Shown: positions 23,584 through 49,654 of the stretch, in pieces
Layout: each line of letters begins with the position of its first letter
How positions within the stretch are numbered: the stretch's first letter is position 1
Origin: Arthrobacter sp. D5-1
Lineage (GTDB): Bacteria > Actinomycetota > Actinomycetes > Actinomycetales > Micrococcaceae
Length of the DNA stretch: 64,000 nucleotides
Assembly (NCBI RefSeq): GCF_017357425.1
Contig: NZ_CP014571.1
Span: 1 to 64,000 of the forward strand
Reading direction: 5' to 3'
Program-made: the position numbers and the translations under genes
Notes under the pieces: model-generated
The model's input: the letters and a program-made list of their open reading frames with translations, nothing else
Told to the model about the DNA's origin: nothing
Database searches by the model: none

Positions 23584-23669
23584 GGATCGAGCTTACAGTC
23601 ACGCCTTGGCTGCAGCATCACACGCAGCCAACATCATCCCGCACCAGCGCCGTTAAAGCCCCTTAAAAG

Positions 23670-25116
23670 GGCTCTTCGCGGTTGATGGTGAAACAGGTTC
23701 CGTGTCTTGAAATCTGAAGGGCTCGTAGCCCTGCTGTGATGGATGTTCTCTACGCATTCATCAAGAGTCAGGAGCTACGAGCCTTGAACGAGCCTACTTC
23801 GCCGCGCCCCGATGCTGCCACCGCCATTTTCAACCTGCCCGACTACCGGGTCACCGGCACCGAGGTCCTCGCCTTCGGGCAGCGACGGATCCGCGTCGTG
23901 GCCACCGCCGAGGCCGGCTGCCCGTCCTGCGGCGTGATCAGCACCCGCGTGCATTCACGCCGGTCACAACGCCTGCGTGACATCCCTGTCGCCGGCCCGG
24001 TCGAAGTGGTCTGGGCCAAGCGGAGGTTCTTCTGCGATGAGTACCTGTGCCCCCGCCGGACATTCACCGAGGAGACAGCCGAGGTACCGCGCCGGGCACG
24101 GTCCACCCGCCGGCTCCGTGAGGCCCTGGTGGCCGCCGTGATCGGTTCCGGGAGGGCCGCCGCCGAGGCTGCCTCTTCATTCGGTGTCTCGTGGTGGCTT
24201 GTCCAGCGGGCACTGGATTCCGCGGCGCTGACGCTGCCCGATGTCGATGCCCTGGCACCGCGGATGCTCGGCATCGATGAACACCGCTACCGGTCCGTGC
24301 GGTTCTTCCGCGACCCTGCCACGAAGGCCTGGAAACGCTACGAACCCTGGATGACCACCATCGTCGATCTCGACACCGGACAAGTCCTCGGGATCGTTGA
24401 CGGCCGCGACAGCGAGGGGGTAGGAGACTGGCTGTTCGCCCGCCCGCTTCAGTGGCGGCTGGGCGTGCAGGTCGTTGCCATCGACCCCTCGGCGGCGTTC
24501 CGCAAGGCCCTGCGGATGTGGCTTCCACGCACCGCTGTCTCAGTCGACGCGTTCCACCTGGTCAAGCTCGGCAACGACATGCTCACCGAAGTCCGGCAAC
24601 GACTCACCCAGCAGACCCATGGTCGGCGGGGGCGCTCCATCGATCCGGTCTGGGCCAACCGGCGACTGCTCCTGCGCGCCGGGGACACGCTCTCGGATCG
24701 GGCCCGGGACAGGCTCAGCAACGTGTTCGCGACCGACGATGTCACCGGGAAGCTGCAGGCCGCGTGGCTGGTCAAGGAACAGCTCCGGGCCCTGCTGACT
24801 ACCGGCTCTCTTGCCGACGCTGCCGCCGCGAAGGACCGGCTGCAGGTCCTGGTCGAGCGAGCCGCGCAGCCGGAGACGAACCGGCTGTGGCGCACAATCT
24901 GCCGGTGGTGGAAAGAGATCGAAGTCCTCATTGTCACCGGTGCGACAACCGCGAAAGTGGAAGCCAACAACACCGCGATAAAACACATAAAGAGGACGGG
25001 TCGGGGATTCACCAACGCACGCAACTACAAAACCCGTATCCTGTTGCGCAGTGCCGCCAGAACAGCGGCATGAACATCCCTCACGGCAGAACGTTCACCA
25101 CGAACCGTGAAGAGCC
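23670..25116 (+). mobile_element. ISL3-family insertion sequence, left copy
   Basis: 1447 bp. The left terminal repeat begins GGCTCTTCGCGGTTGATGGT and the right end, read inward, begins GGCTCTTCACGGTTCGTGGT; they match at 20 of 23 positions. GGCTCTTC ends are typical of ISL3. One transposase gene fills the element. Confidence 0.9.
23739..25073 (+). CDS. ISL3-family transposase
   Basis: About 444 residues, full length for the family. There is an N-terminal zinc-binding region with Cys62, Cys65 (CPSCG) and Cys100, Cys105 (CDEYLC), then a helix-turn-helix (about 135-165). The DDE catalytic domain has Asp181 (GIDEHRY), Asp250 (AIDPSAAF) and Glu409 (KVEANN); numbering counts the GTG at 23736 as residue 1. 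ATG 23739 is used here; GTG 23736 or TTG 23784 (before NEPTSPRPD) are also possible starts. No frameshift or stop interrupts it, so it should be active and able to mobilise both copies. The gene reads outward from the left terminal repeat. Confidence 0.93.
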   Translation: MDVLYAFIKSQELRALNEPTSPRPDAATAIFNLPDYRVTGTEVLAFGQRRIRVVATAEAGCPSCGVISTRVHSRRSQRLRDIPVAGPVEVVWAKRRFFCDEYLCPRRTFTEETAEVPRRARSTRRLREALVAAVIGSGRAAAEAASSFGVSWWLVQRALDSAALTLPDVDALAPRMLGIDEHRYRSVRFFRDPATKAWKRYEPWMTTIVDLDTGQVLGIVDGRDSEGVGDWLFARPLQWRLGVQVVAIDPSAAFRKALRMWLPRTAVSVDAFHLVKLGNDMLTEVRQRLTQQTHGRRGRSIDPVWANRRLLLRAGDTLSDRARDRLSNVFATDDVTGKLQAAWLVKEQLRALLTTGSLADAAAAKDRLQVLVERAAQPETNRLWRTICRWWKEIEVLIVTGATTAKVEANNTAIKHIKRTGRGFTNARNYKTRILLRSAARTAA

Positions 25117-25492
25117 CACAAACTACGGCCCGGCCGGATTGAATTAGCCGAGTTCATTGCCCTCGCGGGCAACACTGAGGGATTGCCCTGGAAGAGCTTC
25201 ATGGGGCTCGGTGCGAGGAAGGTAGACGCTGGCAACGGGGGCCTGGCGGCAGCTGGGGAGAATACGCTCCTGAAATCCCCCGGACACACCGCTCGGGAGA
25301 ATATCCAGCTTGAAGTGAGAGAAAGCGGTAGCAGGGGCGGCACTTTCCCGCCCTGCTGGGGACAGCCGGTAATGCCCTGTTCCTCTGCTTCGCGCTGCCC
25401 CTCTTCCCGCCGGCTGGAAGTCCTCCGGGAAACTAACAGCCGCGGTCCTGGATTCACACGGAAAGCCCGTCGCAACAACTATTTCTATTGAC
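25117..25492 (+). other. 376-bp cargo between the two IS copies; open frame of unknown origin
   Basis: The segment between the ISs is open in one plus frame from 25111 to the stop at 25489-25491, without a start codon linked to a ribosome site. The translation (…RIELAEFIALAGNTEGLPW…) reads as protein-like for its first half and turns into Arg/Ser/Pro-rich, shadow-like sequence later. I do not recognise it. It may be an internal piece of a gene captured when the compound element formed. An opposite-strand frame (25095-25478) is also open but overlaps the IS end and looks like a shadow. Confidence 0.4.
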
Positions 25493-26939
25493 GGCTCTTC
25501 GCGGTTGATGGTGAAACAGGTTCCGTGTCTTGAAATCTGAAGGGCTCGTAGCCCTGCTGTGATGGATGTTCTCTACGCATTCATCAAGAGTCAGGAGCTA
25601 CGAGCCTTGAACGAGCCTACTTCGCCGCGCCCCGATGCTGCCACCGCCATTTTCAACCTGCCCGACTACCGGGTCACCGGCACCGAGGTCCTCGCCTTCG
25701 GGCAGCGACGGATCCGCGTCGTGGCCACCGCCGAGGCCGGCTGCCCGTCCTGCGGCGTGATCAGCACCCGCGTGCATTCACGCCGGTCACAACGCCTGCG
25801 TGACATCCCTGTCGCCGGCCCGGTCGAAGTGGTCTGGGCCAAGCGGAGGTTCTTCTGCGATGAGTACCTGTGCCCCCGCCGGACATTCACCGAGGAGACA
25901 GCCGAGGTACCGCGCCGGGCACGGTCCACCCGCCGGCTCCGTGAGGCCCTGGTGGCCGCCGTGATCGGTTCCGGGAGGGCCGCCGCCGAGGCTGCCTCTT
26001 CATTCGGTGTCTCGTGGTGGCTTGTCCAGCGGGCACTGGATTCCGCGGCGCTGACGCTGCCCGATGTCGATGCCCTGGCACCGCGGATGCTCGGCATCGA
26101 TGAACACCGCTACCGGTCCGTGCGGTTCTTCCGCGACCCTGCCACGAAGGCCTGGAAACGCTACGAACCCTGGATGACCACCATCGTCGATCTCGACACC
26201 GGACAAGTCCTCGGGATCGTTGACGGCCGCGACAGCGAGGGGGTAGGAGACTGGCTGTTCGCCCGCCCGCTTCAGTGGCGGCTGGGCGTGCAGGTCGTTG
26301 CCATCGACCCCTCGGCGGCGTTCCGCAAGGCCCTGCGGATGTGGCTTCCACGCACCGCTGTCTCAGTCGACGCGTTCCACCTGGTCAAGCTCGGCAACGA
26401 CATGCTCACCGAAGTCCGGCAACGACTCACCCAGCAGACCCATGGTCGGCGGGGGCGCTCCATCGATCCGGTCTGGGCCAACCGGCGACTGCTCCTGCGC
26501 GCCGGGGACACGCTCTCGGATCGGGCCCGGGACAGGCTCAGCAACGTGTTCGCGACCGACGATGTCACCGGGAAGCTGCAGGCCGCGTGGCTGGTCAAGG
26601 AACAGCTCCGGGCCCTGCTGACTACCGGCTCTCTTGCCGACGCTGCCGCCGCGAAGGACCGGCTGCAGGTCCTGGTCGAGCGAGCCGCGCAGCCGGAGAC
26701 GAACCGGCTGTGGCGCACAATCTGCCGGTGGTGGAAAGAGATCGAAGTCCTCATTGTCACCGGTGCGACAACCGCGAAAGTGGAAGCCAACAACACCGCG
26801 ATAAAACACATAAAGAGGACGGGTCGGGGATTCACCAACGCACGCAACTACAAAACCCGTATCCTGTTGCGCAGTGCCGCCAGAACAGCGGCATGAACAT
26901 CCCTCACGGCAGAACGTTCACCACGAACCGTGAAGAGCC
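25493..26939 (+). mobile_element. ISL3-family insertion sequence, right copy
   Basis: 1447 bp, same orientation and the same ends as the left copy. All positions I compared, including the full transposase translation, are identical. Identity implies very recent duplication or ongoing homogenisation by recombination. Confidence 0.9.
25562..26896 (+). CDS. ISL3-family transposase (second identical copy)
   Basis: The encoded protein is identical to that of the left copy, with the same four cysteines, the helix-turn-helix and the D-D-E residues. It is intact. Either copy could supply transposase for the 3.27-kb compound element or for movement of a single IS. Direct-repeat recombination between the two genes would remove 1823 bp and leave one IS. 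Confidence 0.93.
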   Translation: MDVLYAFIKSQELRALNEPTSPRPDAATAIFNLPDYRVTGTEVLAFGQRRIRVVATAEAGCPSCGVISTRVHSRRSQRLRDIPVAGPVEVVWAKRRFFCDEYLCPRRTFTEETAEVPRRARSTRRLREALVAAVIGSGRAAAEAASSFGVSWWLVQRALDSAALTLPDVDALAPRMLGIDEHRYRSVRFFRDPATKAWKRYEPWMTTIVDLDTGQVLGIVDGRDSEGVGDWLFARPLQWRLGVQVVAIDPSAAFRKALRMWLPRTAVSVDAFHLVKLGNDMLTEVRQRLTQQTHGRRGRSIDPVWANRRLLLRAGDTLSDRARDRLSNVFATDDVTGKLQAAWLVKEQLRALLTTGSLADAAAAKDRLQVLVERAAQPETNRLWRTICRWWKEIEVLIVTGATTAKVEANNTAIKHIKRTGRGFTNARNYKTRILLRSAARTAA

Positions 26940-26950
26940 CTTAAAAGGGG

Positions 26951-26978
26951 GGAGCCCACGCGTAGCCGCGTGGGCTCC
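26951..26978. terminator. Strong GC hairpin beside the transposon
   Basis: GGAGCCCACGCG (26951-26962) pairs perfectly with 26967-26978 around TAGC. It lies downstream of the minus-strand small gene at 27035-27175 and could terminate it: on that strand the stem is followed by CCCCCCTTTTAAG. The transposon landed only 3 bp from this hairpin. Confidence 0.6.
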
Positions 26979-27034
26979 TTGAGGTTCAGCATGAAGGTGT
27001 GGCACCTGAACTCCTTAGTGGCGGTTGCAGGGCA

Positions 27035-35678: not shown

Positions 35679-36005
35679 ATGAGCAACGCAAAAGACGTAA
35701 CTGACGCAAGCTTCAGCACTGATGTCCTGGCTTCAGAGAAGCCGGTCATCGTGGACTTCTGGGCAGAGTGGTGTGGCCCTTGCCGCAAGCTCGGTCCCAT
35801 CCTTGACGAGATCTCCGTCGAGTACGGCGACAAAGTTGATGTTGTGAAGCTCAACGTCGACGACAACCCTGCCATCGCGGCCGAGTACGGCATCACGTCC
35901 ATCCCGGCTGTGTACCTGTTCAGTGGGGGAGAAGTGAAGAGCACTGTCATCGGCGCCAAGCCGAAGCAGTTCTTCGAGAAGGAATTCGCGGACGTCCTGT
36001 CCTAG
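35679..36005 (+). CDS. trxA: Thioredoxin
   Basis: A 108-residue thioredoxin with active site WCGPC (Cys32, Cys35) and the cis-proline SIPAV. It starts at ATG 35679 after a GAAGG site. It is reduced by TrxB, encoded just upstream in the same operon. Directly after it comes a terminator and then the 5.4-kb gene-free region. In mycobacteria, corynebacteria and streptomycetes trxA is commonly followed by the amidase-like cwlM and then parB; no such gene is here. Confidence 0.95.
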   Translation: MSNAKDVTDASFSTDVLASEKPVIVDFWAEWCGPCRKLGPILDEISVEYGDKVDVVKLNVDDNPAIAAEYGITSIPAVYLFSGGEVKSTVIGAKPKQFFEKEFADVLS

Positions 36006-36033
36006 GGTCGATTTCTCACCTTAATCCAATAAA

Positions 36034-36079
36034 GCCGGCGGTTGCTGCTCTTCACGGAGCGGGAACCGTCGGTTTTTTT
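36034..36079 (+). terminator. Rho-independent terminator after trxA
   Basis: The stem CCGGCGGTT (35-43 of the 36001 line) pairs with AACCGTCGG (36064-36072, one G-U pair), followed by seven T at 36073-36079. Confidence 0.85.
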
Positions 36080-36800
36080 GTCGTTATTGGGTTATGAACC
36101 ATATGCGTTTACTTTTCCTGGTCCCGTTACCGTAGTGGGCATGTGCTCTACTCGTGGGGCGCTTTTCACTTCTCCCTACCTGGGGTAGGCAAAACTTTGA
36201 CCCTCTCTCACATCCCACGCCCTTGAACCCCACCCTCTCTCACTCACACCCACTCGGGCCGTCGTTCCGCGAGGTAATATGCTGATCCGAAGTGATTAGT
36301 CGGCACTGTGTGATCGGAGACCTTGGAGAACTTCAGTTTCTGAATGCACCATCCTGAAGTGGATGCACCCTTGAACAGAGCCCTATGGATCTTTGACGTG
36401 CGATGCCAGGACCCGGGAATCGGGAATGAAACTAGTAGCCGCAGCTTCGTCCTATTAGGCAAATAGCTCAATATCGCCAGAGGGGTAGGCGTGTGGGATC
36501 GTCCGTTTTCGGCATGATGCTACCCGCAGTACAGGTCACCACAACGCGTGTCGTTCTGCCCCCGCCCGGCCAGGGCAAGCCATCAGCGTGAAGAGCTCAG
36601 AAAGAGGCTCGAAGCAAAGGGGATGCTGATTGCTCCACGGAGTCTTGTCCGGCTATCCCCAGATTCAGTTGAACTGACTACCAGGCCAATTCCTACGCCC
36701 GAGCCTGGCTTCATAACCCAGCGACTGCCGGAACTCCCGGTTCGGAAATACGTTCACTGCAGCACGCTCTTCTCACGGATGCAGAATGTGATCACTCCTT

Positions 36801-36820
36801 GTCGTTTCACGTGAAACGAC
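36801..36820. promoter_or_regulatory. parS: parS site 1
   Basis: Perfect core GTTTCACGTGAAAC (36804-36817), extended to a 20-bp palindrome GTCGTTTCACGTGAAACGAC. ParB-binding centromere site. Confidence 0.92.
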
Positions 36821-36864
36821 GACGGCTAGTCCTCCTCAGCCGCTTAGTCCACTGACTTTGCGCA

Positions 36865-36880
36865 AGTTTCACGTGAAACA
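36865..36880. promoter_or_regulatory. parS: parS site 2
   Basis: AGTTTCACGTGAAACA, perfect 14-bp core, 62 bp centre-to-centre from site 1, the closest pair in the array. Confidence 0.92.
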
Positions 36881-37673
36881 TGCTTCTCTTGGTCGGTTTT
36901 GACCGCCCGCATTGTGCGCCAGCCCGTCGGTTCTGGCACCGGCCGACCAAGCGTGACGGCTGAATAGTGGCGAAAGCCCGCCATTGAGGTGCTCTCGACG
37001 AGCATAAACCGCAGGATCCTCCGGTTACTTTTTGTCAGTTTCGGCGATCCCGGGAGTCCTTGGTCATCGCCCTTGAGCCTTTCTGACAGAAGAACGCGTC
37101 AGGGCAGCTCGTGGGTGGGCGCCTCGCTCTGACGGGCCTACGTCGCTGTTGAGGAGGATTGCGCGGCAAAGCAGGGAGGAAGAATGGGTCCCGCGAGGGA
37201 CATCAGCCGTGCTAGCGCCCAATCGCGCACCCTCACGTCCTCATAGGAAGCACAAAGAGTGGGGTACCTTGCCCTAAACTCAAACGCCATTTGAGAGTGT
37301 TCAGATCGGCGCCGTGGGGACCCTCCCCTGGATATACACAGATGCAATGACTATTGGGGGCCCAGTGGCCACGAAAACATCGAGAACACTCTGAGCAAGG
37401 TGCATCCAGGCCGCCGACGGTTCTGCAATCACCCTATAGATGCATCACGACTTGGGCCATGAAAGGGGCTACCGCGACTATCCGGCAAAGCTAGGGCGCC
37501 GGCCTGCATGATGGGGGAGCGTGCACGCTCAATGAATCAGATCCACGCGGGGACCCTCTGCTCGCCGGTGTCTTTCGACAAACAAGCTCTGGGCCAATGC
37601 ACGTTGAATATGCTGCCGCCAGGTGTCGATGAGGAAGAAGCCCTTGGAGCGAGGAATGCGCGCACTGCGCCAC

Positions 37674-37697
37674 GACGTGTTTCACGTGAAACACGTC
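37674..37697. promoter_or_regulatory. parS: parS site 3, 24-bp palindrome
   Basis: The core TGTTTCACGTGAAACA at 37678-37693 is extended by GACG on the left and CGTC on the right, giving the longest perfect palindrome of the set. Confidence 0.93.
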
Positions 37698-38270
37698 AGC
37701 CCGGCCACGACCATACGTGAAGAAATGCTTTGCCATGATGTAACGGCTTGACCGGCAAATACGCGTTCATCAGCATGCGCAGATGCGTTCTTGGTCTGCG
37801 ACTCTAAACTTGTCGCAGCAGCGGAAGAAGATTCCGCCTCAGTGCTGATCTCGGTTTCCCGGAGGGCTTAGTACTTCAGCACACTCAAACCCGCTATGGA
37901 TCAAATGCAGGTCGGGGCGAGCTGCACTTTCCAGCACTAGTGAACCTGCAATGCAACGATGTCCAGGGTTGTCCGCCACCACCGACTGCGACGCGCCGTT
38001 CGGTACTGACCGACCTCATTAGGAAAGCGCGAAGCCTAGGACGGCCTACGGTCGGGCCTAGGGGCCCCCTAGGGGAATAGACACCATGAATCGAAAGAAC
38101 TGAATGAAGAGACAGGCTGTCTAAAGATGGTCGTCTAACCGACGGCCGGAGGTGTCCTGCGATTGCCGTCGTGCAGGACGCCAGCAGACGTACCAACCAC
38201 TCGAAACATGTCCACCGTCGGGAAATACCAACATGCGGCCGGCAAAGGCAATCAGCCGTCGGCGCCGCAA

Positions 38271-38286
38271 TGTTTCACGTGAAACG
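38271..38286. promoter_or_regulatory. parS: parS site 4
   Basis: TGTTTCACGTGAAACG, perfect core. Confidence 0.92.
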
Positions 38287-38846
38287 CCGCATAGTCCCGG
38301 CCTGAATAACAGTGATCCTCAATGGATCATAAGACGACGTCGTCTCCAGCAGGCTCTGACTCTCACAGGCCCAGAGCTCCTGGGAGCAGTTCTATACCCC
38401 GCTCCGCCACAAGGCGAGCAGCCCCATACCGCTCGATCTTGTGTCTGTGACCGTTGTGCCCCAGCACTGTATAGAGGCGGACGGGTCCAGGGGATTAGGC
38501 CTTTCGGTTCAGCCCACGCCCGCGGCGTCCGCCTACACGTATAGGCACAGTCCCCTGGAGAATACGGGGCACTCAATCACATAAGCCAGCGCGTGGGAGC
38601 ACGCGGAGTGTCGTACTCAAGACATCGGATGAATCTCCGGGAGTCAACGGCCTCCGGTGCGTAGTAGGACGGTCAGCTGGACCGCCCCATTGATCCCAAA
38701 GCTTAGGTGCCATGGCAAACTACGACGGCGTTGGATCCCCGGCTCGTTGATGCTCTTCATGCGCGATCCGGTTCGGCATTCATTGCTAAGCATCAGAGCA
38801 TCAGGACACACGTGCTGAGGTCATGGAGCAGCTTCACCCGGTACAG

Positions 38847-38931
38847 TTGTCCACCGGTGGACGACGCACAGGCGGCAAGTTGTGCACAGCTTTATCCACA
38901 GGCTTATCCACCGCCCATGAGATTATTCACA
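38847..38931 (+). promoter_or_regulatory. DnaA-box cluster A inside the parS region
   Basis: Five same-orientation boxes in 85 bp: TTGTCCACC (38847), TTGTGCACA (38880), TTATCCACA (38892, perfect), TTATCCACC (38904), TTATTCACA (38923). Three successive boxes are exactly 12 bp apart. Confidence 0.75.
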
Positions 38932-39211
38932 AGGCATCATTTCGCCGAACCGTAGTGGGTGGGACCCCGCCAAGGAGGGTCGAGTCTTCTACTTTCTGCC
39001 TACCAGGTAAAAGTGGGCACGCCCCGCGAGTGTACATAGTGAAAATCAATGAATCGAGGGGCCAAACACGGAGAATTACGACTATGGCCGCCGGTGTATA
39101 AGTCCGCCATGGATAGGGCCCTTTTGAAGAAGGAGCACCAAAGAAGGAAGGAGGACTCCTCGGCACTTCAACACACTCTGGGCCTCAAGAGGGGCTGCAG
39201 CTCGGCTCAGG

Positions 39212-39256
39212 TTATCCCCAGACTTATCCACAATGATATCCACCACGATATACACA
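39212..39256 (+). promoter_or_regulatory. DnaA-box cluster B, 12-bp phased
   Basis: TTATCCCCA (39212), TTATCCACA (39224, perfect), ATATCCACC (39236) and ATATACACA (39248) follow each other at exactly 12 bp. The first two are strong and the last two are 7 of 9 matches. Confidence 0.65.
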
Positions 39257-39303
39257 GGTAACTCAAGGTTCCCGACTATGTGTAGACGTGCCAGTCGCCG
39301 TCC

Positions 39304-39319
39304 TGTTTCACGTGAAACA
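39304..39319. promoter_or_regulatory. parS: parS site 5
   Basis: TGTTTCACGTGAAACA, full 16-bp consensus, 48 bp after DnaA-box cluster B. Confidence 0.95.
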
Positions 39320-40535
39320 CGAGTCGTTGATGTTCGGTGGGGGAGCAAGCAACATAGGTCGCCAAGGGCTCACGTCTAGTTCTCAACACTCTCAGCGGAG
39401 TCTTCCCTGAAGAGGACAAGGATGAAAAGAGACGAGTACGCGCCGGCCCGGGCGACATCTGACCAATCCGGTTCACAGCGTCTCATCAGCGCGTTCAGGG
39501 GCTAGGTACATGTACGCGTCCGGGGGGAATACGACCATCCTCTGACATTACGGAAAACCTCCCACCCGAACGTTGCCTGACGGATCCGTACTCCAACTTG
39601 GAGGGTCAATGCTGTAGTGGAGGGGCATAGGCATTAGTCGGGGGACTATTTCCGTCTGCTCGACGGCCACATTGGCGGTACCGGCACAGTGACAGCCCCC
39701 GTCTACGAAGCTAAGGATGGGACCAGCTTCGACAGGCATGCCAGATTCGTCAACACCTGCTGCTGTACGCAGTAATAGCCCGTTGGTGCCTGTTAGCGCC
39801 GGACACACGGGCTCAAGGGCCACAGATGTGAAGTTCCTCGTGACGCTGCGGAGAAACCAGCTGCCCAAGTTCCTGACGGTTAGCCTAAGTTCCAAAGCCC
39901 ATTGACGCCGAGGGAAGCGTGCCTACCTGATACAGCTGCCAAGGACTCACCGGCTCCGCACTGGGAGAGGGCCAGTCTGTTCGAAGACCTCAATGCCTCT
40001 CTCTCATCAGCCCGAGCGGATTTGGTAGAACGCGTAAAGCTGAACACAGCGCCTCAGCCCTGGCAATCCGTTACGCCTGCGATAGGACAGTGGTCGTGGC
40101 AGCACCTCCGGCAACTACTGCCGGCTCGAGCGAGAGCGGGAGAGGCCGCGATGTGCTGTCCTGGAGAGCGACGACGCGGAACCCTAAGGACATGGAGGAG
40201 TCTGCTGCTGGCCTATTAGCCAATGGCCGAGAACCGTCAGGCTTTGGCTAGGAGGCTAGCTAGCTACGCATCAGCTGTTCCGCATTGATGCATTCTTGGT
40301 TGCAGGATCGTCAATTATGGGGACGCAGACTGTTGCACTGCGTACTGCAGAATAGCCTTGCCCCGACCTTCCGGCGATATGGTCGACGGAAGAACCGCAC
40401 CCCGGCGAGAATTGTGGCCATCTAGTCGACTCGCCCTTGAACCGTCGGTTGTGAAAGAAGATCACATATCGTCAATGGTGTTTTGTGTCAGCAAATCCCT
40501 ACCTTTTGCGGTTTTATTGCTGAATCTTAGACTCA

Positions 40536-40555
40536 GCTGTTTCACGTGAAACAGC
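40536..40555. promoter_or_regulatory. parS: parS site 6
   Basis: GCTGTTTCACGTGAAACAGC, 20-bp perfect palindrome containing the full 16-bp consensus. Confidence 0.95.
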
Positions 40556-40749
40556 GCCAGCGATGCGCGTGCCCGGAACCGGCTCAATTCCCCCGCGTAT
40601 GCCAAAGATGCAAACCCTGGTTCTAGACGCTGGATATCCGATATTGCATGAGACTTCACCATCTCCAAGAAACCGCAATGCCAATGCGCCGACCGCCGAA
40701 CCAGTGCTTAGCCGAAGATCGATTGCATGCCACCGAGCTACTAAGAGTG

Positions 40750-40765
40750 TGTTTCACGTGAAACA
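40750..40765. promoter_or_regulatory. parS: parS site 7
   Basis: TGTTTCACGTGAAACA, full consensus, 212 bp from site 6. Confidence 0.95.
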
Positions 40766-41124
40766 GAAGCTTCCGCCGAAAGTTCAGATACGCGTGTGCC
40801 CTCGGCTACTAGAGAAGAGCAGCCTGGGGATCCGCGCAGAACTGGGGTAAGTGTTCATGTGTGGTGAAAATCCGCTGACGGAGGCTTGCTCCACACGGGT
40901 TCCCTACGCAGCATTGGCGCACAACTCCACCGGCATTCGGAAAAGCGCTGCGAATCGTCGACGGCAATCGGACGCGGCGGGCACCGTATGCCATAAGCCG
41001 TCTCCCGCACCCTCTGCCGCCTCCTAAGCCACGGGGAGACCTGCAGAGTGCCAACGTTCGACCCAGCTCCACGCGCACTTCGAACCCCTCAGCCCGGCAA
41101 GGTGCGCACCCAAAAGTCCTTCTC

Positions 41125-41146
41125 GCATGTTTCACGTGAAACATGC
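41125..41146. promoter_or_regulatory. parS: parS site 8
   Basis: Core TGTTTCACGTGAAACA (41128-41143) within a 22-bp palindrome flanked by GCA and TGC; nearest site to parB. Confidence 0.95.
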
Positions 41147-41499
41147 TTCGTCCGTCTCGCTTCACGGTGAGTGTAGGGGAATCTTGAGTGAAGAACGTAT
41201 CCCAGCCACTGACGGTGGGGCGAACGCTCTACGAAGGCGTAAGGTCCGCAAATCCCGGTATCCAGGACCTTGCCGAGCACAGCTTCTACCCACCGACCAA
41301 GAGAGTCCCTTTCGGCCAAATCGACTCATACGGCCCTAGGAATCCGTAGCAAAAGCCATGAGGATGCCACGCGACTGGTTGGTTTATGGTGCTGAATCAA
41401 TCAGTGCCCTCCGCAAGGACTCCCGTAGGAAATACGGAAAGGCCAATCTGGACACACTATGTAGAGCGAAACTGGGAAGGTACGAAAAACTGCGGGATA

Positions 41500-41541
41500 T
41501 CAAAAACCAAAATGGGGCCTACTCGACGAGTAAGCCCCATT
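41500..41541 (-). terminator. Terminator of the parB operon
   Basis: AATGGGGC (41511-41518) pairs with GCCCCATT (41534-41541), with an inner TACTCG/CGAGTA stem. On the minus strand it is followed by TTGGTTTTTG. It lies 18 bp after the parB stop. Confidence 0.88.
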
Positions 41542-41559
41542 CAGTTGGTTCACTACAAT

Positions 41560-42780
41560 TTAGCCTTCGGTGCCGGGGCCAAGCACATCCATGATGCGGT
41601 TGAGATCCTCAACGCTGGCGAACTCAATGCTGACTCGGCCTTTGCGTGCACCCAAAGTAATCTTCACATTGGTGTCCAGGCGGTCCGAGAGTGACGACGC
41701 CAAGTAGTCCAAACGCTCGTGGCGCGCATTGGGTTTCGGGATACTGCTCTTGGCGGGAGCAGTAGGATCTTGATAGAGAGCCACTGCCTCTTCTGTTGCC
41801 CTCACAGACATCCCCTCGGCCACAATCTTCTGAGCCAGGCGTTCCATCGCAGCGGCGTCCGGCAGGGCCAAGAGTGCCCGCGCATGGCCGGCAGACAAAA
41901 CACTCGCTGCTACACGCCGCTGGACCAAGGGCGGGAGCTTCAGCAAACGGAGTGTGTTGGACACCTGCGGCCGAGAGCGACCTATGCGATCTGCAAGCTG
42001 TTCGTGAGTGGTCCCAAAGTCTTCCAAGAGCTGCTGATAGGCAGCAGCCTCTTCCAGAGGGTTCAGCTGGCTGCGGTGGAGGTTTTCCAGCAAAGCGTCG
42101 CGAAGGAGGTCGTCGTCAGTGGTATCGCGGACGATCGCAGGGATGGTTTCGAGCCCTGCGGCCTGTACCGCACGCCAGCGACGCTCACCCATGACCAATT
42201 CATACGGTTCTCCACCCTTTTCGGTTGAAGTACGTACAACAATTGGCTGGAGGACGCCGATTTCGCGAACGGAGTGAACCAGCTCGGCCATGTCATCTTC
42301 ATCGAAGACCGAACGCGGCTGTTTACGGTTCGGATGGATGTCACCGACCGGAATCTCGGCAAAGCGAGCACCAGGAACTTCAACCAGCTCCACGTCCGGT
42401 GTCGAGCGAGTAGTGGACTTGGTTGCGGCCTTTGCCGGCTCCGATTCATCCGTCGTGTGATCAGAGGGCACTGACGCTCGCTTGGGGGCAGGCTTCGATG
42501 CAGATGTCTTGGAGGTGGCGGACTTGGTTGACGCCTTGGAAGCTGCCGCTTTGGGCGCTGGAGCCTTGGCAGCGGCCGGCGTCGCTGCCGACTCCTTTGA
42601 CGACTCCACAGCAGCGGAGTCCTGGATCGGATCTTCTACTGCCGGCTCTTCGGACTTCCGGGCTTCCGGGAAGAACAGATCCACAGGACGGGATGGCGCC
42701 ACGCCGTTTCCCTGGGCCGCGGCCGAGCTAGGAATGAGAGCCCCAAGACCCCTACCGAGGCCCCTTCGCTTTTCGCTCAT
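41560..42780 (-). CDS. parB: Chromosome partitioning protein ParB
   Basis: 406 residues. After [17 protein letters not shown], the motif by which actinobacterial/bacterial ParB contacts ParA, comes an unusually long Ala/Lys/Ser/Pro-rich linker (about residues 20-130). Then follow the ParB N-terminal CTPase domain ([22 protein letters not shown]), the helix-turn-helix that reads parS ([25 protein letters not shown]), and a dimerisation tail. The protein loads at parS, slides as a clamp and recruits ParA/SMC. It is transcribed after parA (67 bp apart) and ends at a terminator facing the parS-rich region. Confidence 0.95.
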
Positions 42781-42847: not shown

Positions 42848-43903
42848 CTAGCGTTCAGCGATTTCGGCGGCGGCTTCCATGTAGGAGAGCGCGCCGCTCG
42901 ACGAAGGATCGTAGGTCATGACCGTCTGCTGGTAGCTGGGTGCTTCGGAGATACGCACAGAACGCGGAACCACTGCTCCCAGAACTTGTTCGGGGAAGTG
43001 TTGGCGTACCTCGGATGCGACCTGAGCGGCGAGGTTCGTTCGGCCGTCGTACATGGTCAGGAGGATCGTGGACACCTCCAGGTCAGCATTGAGGTGCTTC
43101 TGGATCATTTCGATGTTCTTGAGAAGCTGGCTCAATCCTTCCAAGGCGTAGTACTCGCACTGGATGGGAATAAGGACTTCACTTGCGGCACAGAAGGCGT
43201 TGACCGTCAGCAGCCCGAGGCTGGGCGGGCAGTCAATAAAGATGAAGTCCAAGCGGCTCTCGCCGTTCTTCTCCCGCTCCTTGGCGTAGACGTCGATGGC
43301 TCGCCGGAGCCTCTGTTCCCGGGCAACCAATGAAACCAGCTCGATTTCAGCACCGGCAAGATGGATGGTGGCGGGTGCGCAGATCAGGTTGGGAATATCT
43401 GGGCAAGGGGCCACAACGTCGTTCAGGGGAAGGTCGTTGATCAGGACGTCGTAGATACTGTCAACGTCGGCGTGGTGCTCAATGCCCAGAGCCGTTGACG
43501 CGTTGCCCTGTGGATCAATATCAATCACCAAGACGTTGAGGCCGGCGGAGGCCAGAGCGGCAGCGATGTTCACGGTGGTGGTCGTCTTACCGACCCCACC
43601 TTTTTGATTGGAAACCGTGAAGATGCGGGTTTTATCCGGCTTTGGCAGTTCCCTGCCCACCAGCCGTTCACGCCGACGGGTCTCGTGTGCCAACTGACGG
43701 GCGATGGGACTCGAGTCATCAATGGAATCCATCACGTTATGCACTCCATCAGATACGGTTTCACGTGAAACAGCGGCATTATCAACCGAATTAGTGCGCA
43801 CGATTGCAGACTGAAGAGACGCAGAGGGTGTAGCCATTGCCCGAGCTGACCCCAACGACATAAACGGGGGGATTCGCTGCGTGGAGGTTTCACTACTGCC
43901 CAC
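42848..43903 (-). CDS. parA: Chromosome partitioning ATPase ParA
   Basis: 351 residues from GTG 43903; ATG 43837 (MATPSAS) is an alternative start. The deviant Walker A is [15 protein letters not shown] (about residues 98-112). The Walker A' [12 protein letters not shown] and Walker [15 protein letters not shown] are intact. A parS site is embedded in the N-terminal coding region and encodes AVSRET. ParA forms the nucleoid-bound ATP gradient that pulls ParB-parS complexes. It lies 87 bp downstream of rsmG in one operon direction. Confidence 0.95.
43757..43772. promoter_or_regulatory. parS: parS site 9, inside parA
   Basis: GGTTTCACGTGAAACA with a perfect 14-bp core (43758-43771), within the variable N-terminal extension of parA. 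Confidence 0.93.
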
Positions 43904-49081: not shown

Positions 49082-49654
49082 AATCCACACCGCGGCCGCT
49101 ACTACATACCTTATTAACAGGTGCATGTGGATAAGCCTGTGGATACTTAAGGGGACAAGCTCGGTTAATGGGCTTAAAACCCTTAAGCCGCCTGTGGATC
49201 GTTAAAAACCGGCTTGGGAGTTGTCCCCATCCACACCCTGTTTAAAACCCAGTTAACGCACAATGAGTGAACAGGGCTTAACCGCTGAACGACGCGGCAG
49301 GATCGGGTTATCCACAGTTTCCACAGCAGTTATTAACACTACGAATCCCAAAAAATTGAAATCCCTCAAATAACAATCTCGTTCTGCCACCGTCCCGCCG
49401 CCAGGGGCGGACCACAGACGGACCCCAAAGGCCGCCTGCGGCTGTCCACATACGAAGGGTCCGGCCCGACGGGGATGGGTTAATCGCGGATCTTCCGGCT
49501 AAGCTGTCAGCAGCGCTCCCATCCTTGGGTCTGTTTGTAGTTCGCTGAGTGCGGACCATGCAGGTTCCGGTGCCGGAATGCAGAGATTTAGCGGCTTCCA
49601 CGCAGGAATCCGCAGCTACTACTTGACAGCAGCAATGAAAGGCGGCACCCCTCC
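49082..49654. other. oriC: Replication origin oriC between dnaA and dnaN
   Basis: This 573-bp spacer has boxes TGTGGATAA (49126, perfect, minus), TGTGGATAC (49138), TGTGGATCG (49193), TTGTCCCCA (49221) and TTATCCACA (49308, perfect). An AT-rich stretch (49329-49380, TTATTAACAC… to AACAATCTC) immediately after the last box is the best candidate unwinding element. The first two boxes are 12 bp apart. The dnaA-dnaN spacer is the established origin position in actinobacteria. Confidence 0.85.

Follow-up and report, generated by a model that had tools for sequence, protein, structure and literature searches.

A gene-free parS island with paired DnaA-box arrays next to parB in Arthrobacter and related genera

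Why does a bacterial chromosome keep more than five kilobases of gene-free DNA at its centromere? This question is raised by a stretch of 64,000 nucleotides (hereafter the window) from Arthrobacter sp. D5-1, a member of the Micrococcaceae (assembly GCF_017357425.1, contig NZ_CP014571.1, positions 1 to 64,000), in which trxA and a gene that we take, from its family, to be parB converge on a long interval with many parS sites. From the letters of the window, an original prediction had regarded this interval as a dedicated, possibly structural, spacer of the centromere, or else as a place of non-coding RNAs or remnants of lost genes. Here, we compare the interval among relatives of the strain. 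Its length and its parS content are kept throughout the genus, while its filler sequence is not, and in its middle it carries two arrays of DnaA boxes on one strand, which lie at a nearly fixed distance from each other around a probable intrinsic bend.

The parS sites are considered first. Nine of them, with no more than two mismatches, were found in the window, eight in the interval and the ninth inside parA, where chance would give 0.19 matches even at up to three mismatches. The whole 5.12-Mb genome contains exactly nine exact 14-bp cores (GTTTCACGTGAAAC), and these are the same nine, all located at 36.8-43.8 kb, that is, within 7 kb at parAB, while two sites with one mismatch occur elsewhere. 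Exact cores are present in 205 of 206 genus genomes, with 5-14 in each, and the exception is a genome that is only 63% complete. The exact core inside parA recurs in 23 same-genus loci. Thus, exact parS palindromes are clustered near the origin and parAB, as in a ParABS chromosomal centromere.

The interval itself persists across the genus. In the window and 23 of 24 same-genus relatives, it spans 4.0-9.4 kb and contains 6-10 parS sites, the remaining relative having ended at a contig edge. In a set of 50 genus genomes, composed of the window, the 23 relatives, six genomes from a draw across the family and 20 genomes (L131-L150) that were picked for similarity to the window's interval and are thus not a random draw, an interval of 3865-9357 bp (median 5796) with 6-11 parS sites is present in all 50. 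Three intervals from one further genus (g21) and one from another (g33) bring the set to 54. It should be noted that these genomes are related by descent, and the counts are consequently not independent. Loci L060, L064 and L065 have no trxA and are excluded from the interval counts; trxA is likewise lacking in L072, L079 and L080 of the family-wide loci and in ten of a later set of 80 loci, several of which duplicate genomes with G handles. Among the 38 other genomes in the ParB search, G014, G037 and G038 are not included.

The filler DNA between the sites behaves differently from the sites. In pairs of genomes that differ at more than 25% of the 4-fold degenerate sites of trxB, an average of 4% or less of the interval can be aligned. 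Between the window and its closest relative, L131, 123 of 123 bases are kept over eight parS sites and three DnaA boxes, and the entire interval aligns at 59.5%, compared with 54-64% for shuffled segments with another aligner. The corresponding counts of kept site bases are 159 of 165 for L032 and L150, and 143 of 156 for L147 and L148, where one parS has no counterpart. In seven pairs of relatives, the 4-fold sites of the flanking genes differ by 14-43%, the pair L134 and L149 being not very close (0.43). Three pairs could be aligned end to end, with differences of 18%, 34% and 40% in the interval versus 14%, 14% and 19% at the 4-fold sites. For five pairs cut at the sites, the scores of the segments lie above those of shuffles (z from 1.8 to 89), which indicates that the filler DNA is homologous between the members of a pair. 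The divergence of the filler among near relatives equals or exceeds that of the 4-fold (synonymous) sites. Local hypermutation was considered as a cause and rejected: the ratio of filler to 4-fold difference is about 1.3-fold in the closest pair (0.18 versus 0.14) and larger in others, and a raised mutation rate is not established, because the 4-fold sites are under codon bias. Drift faster than the 4-fold sites may reflect only this bias.

Does the interval contain any gene? Its 61 open reading frames (ORFs) with a length of 40 aa or above gave no tblastn match (E<=1e-5) in the loci of relatives (47 loci from 23 genomes), and the flanking genes were matched in 34 (trxB and trxA), 23 (parB) and 30 (parA) of these loci. 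A Pfam search with the ten longest ORFs gave nothing at E<=0.01, and the Rfam search at the gathering threshold found two tRNAs in the entire window and none within the interval. In a comparison of all intervals, conserved-ORF cover is absent from 71 of 77 array-bearing intervals. The other six (L131, L140-L143 and L150) contain frames that are array or end stretches common to near relatives, except for one frame of 65 aa in L143, which matches L082 and L173 at 57-62%. Two array-bearing loci without trxA, L155 and L167, were counted as non-clade in this comparison. Both ends of the interval carry an intrinsic terminator. With an identical test, the terminator on the trxA side was detected in 49 of 54 genomes and in 2 of 54 interior control windows, and that on the parB side in 41 of 54 genomes and in 5 of 54 control windows. 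The original prediction of a gene-free stretch that lies between terminators after trxA and after parB and holds eight of nine parS sites is therefore borne out, as no conserved protein in the interval is supported by the comparison. Nor is the interval an assembly artefact, being present in 50 of 50 genus genomes, and a dedicated non-coding spacer describes well a region whose length and parS content, and not its filler sequence, are kept genus-wide. What the idea of a passive spacer overlooked is the pair of DnaA-box arrays with their fixed geometry and the phased A-tracts.

Boxes of the TTATCCACA type were found in the middle of all 24 intervals that were compared first, in two groups 320-410 bp apart, with the array boxes on one strand. 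In the window, the two arrays are on the same strand and about 332 bp apart, and the right one is also detected as a tandem repeat of period 12 at 39225-39256. Exact doublets with a pitch of 12 bp (TWTCCACN5TWTCCAC) occur at only three places in the genome: 38893 and 39225 in the island, and 49127 in oriC. When parB is read as the minus strand, twin arrays are present on the plus strand in 50 of 50 genus intervals, weakly in one of them, in all three of g21 and in the one of g33. Scored as a pair with an ad hoc matrix made for this analysis, the arrays of the 54 intervals have a median of 111 and a minimum of 73, while the scores do not exceed 66.5 on the opposite strand of these intervals and 62.3 in 60 shuffles. 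L069 alone shows a TTWTCCAC box in the opposite orientation no more than 75 bp away from an array. The score separates only within trxA-parB intervals, since non-clade loci reach 82.8 when the whole locus is scanned, at places that fit oriC. The distance between the arrays is likewise constrained. It falls in residues 7-10 modulo 12 in 46 of 54 intervals, and of seven relative pairs, six agree in it to within 1 bp and one shows a difference of exactly 12, compared with one of 21 parS-parS distances (150-700 bp, best partner within 30%) that is stable to 1 bp or less. A cluster of DnaA boxes outside oriC is thus present above chance, as in DnaA-binding control loci, and it shares one locus with parS, as in a DnaA-bound centromere of the Caulobacter type.

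The DNA between the arrays includes, about 175 bp before the right array, a segment that is only about 50-56% A+T and whose A-tracts are in phase with the DNA helix. Over the 50 genus intervals, the mean A-tract power at 10.5 bp is 1.47 in this segment versus about 0.2-0.4 outside it, and there is no peak at 8 or 14 bp. The strongest phased window of an interval falls between the arrays in 23 of 54 cases, compared with 2.1% of the 2160 equally long control segments. The between-array phasing is in the top 1% in 37 of 54 intervals (10% of controls) and in the top 5% in 50 of 54 (38% of controls), the latter being weak evidence by itself. From this periodicity, the segment is a probable intrinsic bend. 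The arrays are also placed with respect to parS: in 47 of 54 intervals, a parS site lies either 110-143 bp before the right array (28 intervals) or 79-97 bp after it (21 intervals), and two intervals have both. After masking of the parS sites and the boxes, the motifs left are only weaker 8-mers, for example parS variants, A-runs, CTGGGGTA and a repeat of the CTCTCTCA type.

Then, could the island be the replication origin itself? The oriC between dnaA and dnaN has a box layout common to 12 genus relatives, two array-bearing genomes of other genera and six array-free genera, and the island lies outside that interval. The 'up500' values of loci that begin at a contig start, a slicing artefact, are excluded from this comparison. 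Since the canonical oriC is intact, the DnaA locus of the island comes in addition to it, at a distance of about 10 kb. A relocated oriC was rejected, because the conserved boxes stay in place between dnaA and dnaN whether or not a genus carries the arrays. The GC skew at 4-fold sites is dominated by the gene strand (C-ending codons) and has no usable replication component. At least five more DnaA boxes, in mixed orientation, are clustered at G000:C1:4705281-4705706 (locus L234, 2781-3206), upstream of a gene that we take, from the start of its protein, to be dnaB-like. On a circular chromosome, this cluster would lie about 72 kb away from the island, measured across the contig ends. The coordinates of the features in the window are listed in Table 1.

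Table 1. Features of the trxA-parB interval and its surroundings in the window
Feature	Position	Strand	Remark
Gene-free trxA-parB interval (centromere island)	36006..41559		5554 bp between the stop codons of trxA and parB
trxA	35679..36005	+	
Intrinsic terminator 3' of trxA	36032..36080	+	Hairpin of -31.4 kcal/mol and T run
parS 1	36803..36818		
parS 2	36865..36880		
parS 3	37678..37693		
parS 4	38271..38286		
Left DnaA-box array	38880..38931	+	TTGTGCACA 38880, TTATCCACA 38892, TTATCCACC 38904 (12-bp pitch), TTATTCACA 38923
AT-rich, helically phased A-tract segment between the arrays	39042..39078		Probable intrinsic bend
Right DnaA-box array	39212..39256	+	TTATCCCCA 39212, TTATCCACA 39224, ATATCCACC 39236, ATATACACA 39248 (12-bp pitch)
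parS 5	39304..39319		82 bp after the main right-array box
parS 6	40538..40553		
parS 7	40750..40765		
parS 8	41128..41143		
Intrinsic terminator 3' of parB	41505..41549	-	-26.9 kcal/mol
parB	41560..42780	-	Used in the ParB searches
parA	42848..43903	-	Contains parS 9
parS 9	43757..43772		Within the 5' part of parA
Canonical oriC, dnaA-dnaN interval	49082..49654		Retained; reference point outside the island

Two other observations concern the anatomy of the window. Shortly after trxA, at 36200-36243, there is a 44-bp dispersed repeat of the CCCTCTCTCAC type, which has a further copy at C1:1568265-1568308 and whose copies lie about 32 bp apart in relatives such as G284. In addition, positions 23584-27034 form a second long stretch without any ORF selected by matches to the loci of relatives; coverage by relatives is thin there, and the stretch may simply consist of variable genes.

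How widely are the arrays distributed? In the trxA-parB interval, they were found in the genus of the window, whose records are named Paenarthrobacter, Pseudarthrobacter and, in several cases, Arthrobacter, as well as in g21 (three of three loci) and g33 (one of one). The Sinomonas record L166, which falls among g21 on the tree, also has them, and one of the two further array-bearing genera is probably Sinomonas. No arrays were found in the sampled loci of Rothia, Kocuria, Micrococcus, Glutamicibacter, Psychromicrobium, A. koreensis, A. gandavensis and A. agilis; in several array-free loci, the interval is too short to hold them. Among the sampled loci whose interval is seen in full, the arrays are confined to intervals that have six or more parS sites. 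In other families, 25 loci have an interval of at least 750 bp, of which 21 are covered to 73-100% by conserved ORFs, 20 of these without parS, and in five further loci the interval is only 67-122 bp; a few genomes occur twice in this set.

On a tree of ParA and ParB with 64 rows, the array label needs two changes, both within one group of 34 rows (SH-aLRT, the Shimodaira-Hasegawa-like approximate likelihood ratio test, 99). The tree was built with a quick method that does not settle the inner order of this group, and it has long branches elsewhere. The history of the arrays would accordingly comprise either one gain and one later loss, in the Psychromicrobium group, or two gains. Eight rows of the group are array-free, four of them with intervals of 57-475 bp and others with intervals that reach 2.8-10.3 kb. 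The four loci with the short intervals, L084, L085, L179 and L181, have one or two parS sites each, and it is possible that they represent a natural deletion of the island.

What else occupies this place? The original prediction had remarked that cwlM sits between trxA and parB in several actinobacteria, and this holds for other genera. A protein with PG_binding_1 and Amidase_3 domains, that is, a cwlM-like protein, adjoins trxA on the trxA-parB side in Arthrobacter koreensis and Arthrobacter sp. H14, while A. gandavensis and the loci L055, L056, L061, L068 and L076 (these five from other genera or families) have matches to it at the equivalent place. A full-length CwlM-like match was found in none of 25 genus genomes (G000-G024), where G023 has a partial match of 59 residues, and the same search gave strong matches in four genomes of other families as positive controls. 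The apparent loss of CwlM in the genus is worth checking against the regulation of peptidoglycan.

In one alternative explanation, the island would be a neutral leftover, in which cwlM was lost and non-coding DNA stayed behind. The presence of the gene at this place in A. koreensis, A. gandavensis and Arthrobacter sp. H14 but not, at full length, in the 25 genus genomes would agree with that, as would the fast drift of the filler. However, no CwlM-like match at E<=1e-8 exists in the window, the interval included, so that the suggested remnant of a lost gene finds no support; furthermore, 3.9-9.4 kb persist in 50 of 50 genomes though the filler is unalignable between most species, and the sites, the spacings and the terminators are kept. 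We therefore regard a neutral leftover as very improbable. It is scarcely credible, in our opinion, that the interval encodes non-coding RNAs or fast-evolving small proteins. Small transcripts may be missing from Rfam, orphan small ORFs are possible, and the 65-aa frame in L143 with its two matches could be one of them. Nevertheless, no ORF of the window is conserved between species, conserved-ORF cover is lacking in nearly all array-bearing intervals, with the other frames being mostly array or end stretches of near relatives, and neither an Rfam match nor sequence conservation outside the short sites was found, which argues against the non-coding RNAs suggested before.

Two other explanations assign the arrays to replication alone. 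The layout of an array, an AT-rich segment and another array could be that of a second or auxiliary bipartite origin, and it is consistent with this that the exact 12-bp doublets occur elsewhere in the genome at oriC only. Such an origin is nevertheless unlikely, as the canonical oriC is conserved in array-bearing and array-free genera, and the segment is just about 50-56% A+T and phased like a bend. A more serious rival, although we consider it doubtful, is a regulator like datA or DARS of Escherichia coli: the arrays would control the level or the nucleotide state of DnaA only, and the position at the centromere would be incidental to the proximity of oriC. The island has the form of such a regulator, with extra DnaA boxes clustered about 10 kb away from an oriC that is intact; parS is not required for this role, and boxes next to a likely bend recall datA and DARS2, which combine DnaA boxes with IHF sites (PMC10380432). 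Against it stand the parS site whose distance from the right array takes one of two set values in most intervals, and the restriction of the sampled arrays to intervals rich in parS.

Is there any precedent, then, for an initiator at a centromere? Among actinobacteria, Streptomyces has a DnaA-box cluster outside oriC, which has been proposed to limit initiation; to our knowledge, neither a parS island nor a geometry-locked twin array is known for it. In Caulobacter crescentus, parS is bound by DnaA, which at low levels can drive partitioning in the absence of replication (PMC6399470). The DnaA boxes are located there at parS, about 8 kb from the origin, which places the initiator and ParB at one locus, as is predicted for the island; however, Caulobacter is described with one parS locus and weaker sites, whereas the island consists of several gene-free kilobases with 6-11 parS sites and two same-strand arrays at fixed spacing around a likely A-tract bend. 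On chromosome II of Vibrio cholerae, the rctA/parS2 locus is an origin-adjacent control locus that binds both an initiator and ParB, but the initiator is RctB rather than DnaA, and the parS2 centromere forms part of a small regulatory locus. Caulobacter and Vibrio are the clearest cis-acting cases of coupling between replication and segregation that we know from that source, whose passages on B. subtilis and Myxococcus describe centromeres with many parS sites, mostly toward oriC, and make no mention of a central DnaA array (PMC6399470). The loci datA, DARS1 and DARS2 of E. coli resemble the island as DnaA-box clusters outside oriC, with bending sites at datA and DARS2; boxes are combined with sites for the bending protein IHF at oriC, datA and DARS2, and the passages on datA and DARS link them to IHF and Fis and leave parS unmentioned (PMC10380432), whereas the bend of the island is apparently encoded in phased A-tracts. 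As for the orientation of boxes, those in the same direction favour head-to-tail oligomers of ATP-DnaA in E. coli, while the DnaA of Thermotoga manages on mixed directions (PMC10316083). The nearest precedents are the DnaA-bound centromere of Caulobacter, which is the nearest functional one, and the datA and DARS loci. Titles and abstract openings on parS, DnaA boxes or oriC of Arthrobacter or actinobacteria gave no description of such an element, in a search that most subscription papers lay outside, and the passages of PMC7022226 on the subject make no mention of Arthrobacter. The architecture of the island appears to be new.

Based on the Caulobacter precedent, we favour a coupling of the state of DnaA to the centromere, with a datA-like role as the main rival. 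In detail, the island would be a transcription-shielded centromere, at which ParB and a looped DnaA complex stand side by side and couple the state of the initiator to segregation, a reading to which we assign a probability of roughly 0.58. From the anatomy of the interval, its lack of conserved genes, the sites and geometry kept against the drift of the filler and the phylogenetic distribution, we infer that DnaA and ParB would occupy the island, with looping, bending, ParB spreading, shielding from transcription and coupling as further predicted steps. The eight parS sites, spread over 4.3 kb, would load ParB clamps, and the non-coding length would provide gene-free DNA for the spreading of ParB and the loading of SMC; the parS array and the terminators together suggest a ParB domain that is kept free of transcription. 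The two head-to-tail arrays, with their 12-bp pitch, their distance of about 332 bp and the phased A-tract bend between them, may nucleate two DnaA oligomers that meet by looping, as the fixed distance and the likely bend point to one looped complex. The most likely role of such a complex would be to couple the state of the initiator to segregation. Either DnaA bound at the island would commit the origin region to movement by ParABS, as reported for Caulobacter, or DnaA would be sequestered or inactivated beside the freshly replicated centromere.

Several observations weigh against this coupling. Many Micrococcaceae with ParABS lack the arrays, which are therefore not needed for partition as such. 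L071, L053 and the Sinomonas record L166 show little or no A-tract phasing, and 7 of 54 intervals have no parS at either of the usual distances from the right array. Array scores drop to 80.6-86.4 in g21, g33 and the Sinomonas record, and to 73 in L125. Moreover, 8 of 21 parS-parS distances are stable to 1-3 bp, so that spacing is conserved between some parS sites as well, although less strongly than at the arrays. DnaA could also bind here for a reason unrelated to parS.

A more far-reaching version of the coupling is put forward only tentatively. The island may represent a new class of element, an initiator-gated centromere, in which two DnaA oligomers, looped together on the geometry-locked arrays around the intrinsic bend, would switch the assembly of ParB and SMC or the segregation of the origin on or off, depending on the state of DnaA; the surrounding parS island would be selected for its length and not for the sequence of its filler. 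Such an element would have arisen in the lineage of Arthrobacter and Sinomonas, by two separate gains or by a single gain that the Psychromicrobium group later lost.

For the question of how bacteria couple the initiation of replication to segregation, this locus offers a natural design in soil actinobacteria. The discrete arrays, their fixed spacing, the likely bend and the existence of a related array-free group are features that would aid a direct test of such coupling. For the genus itself, the island looks like bacterial DNA that is kept for its length and its freedom from genes, and not for its sequence.

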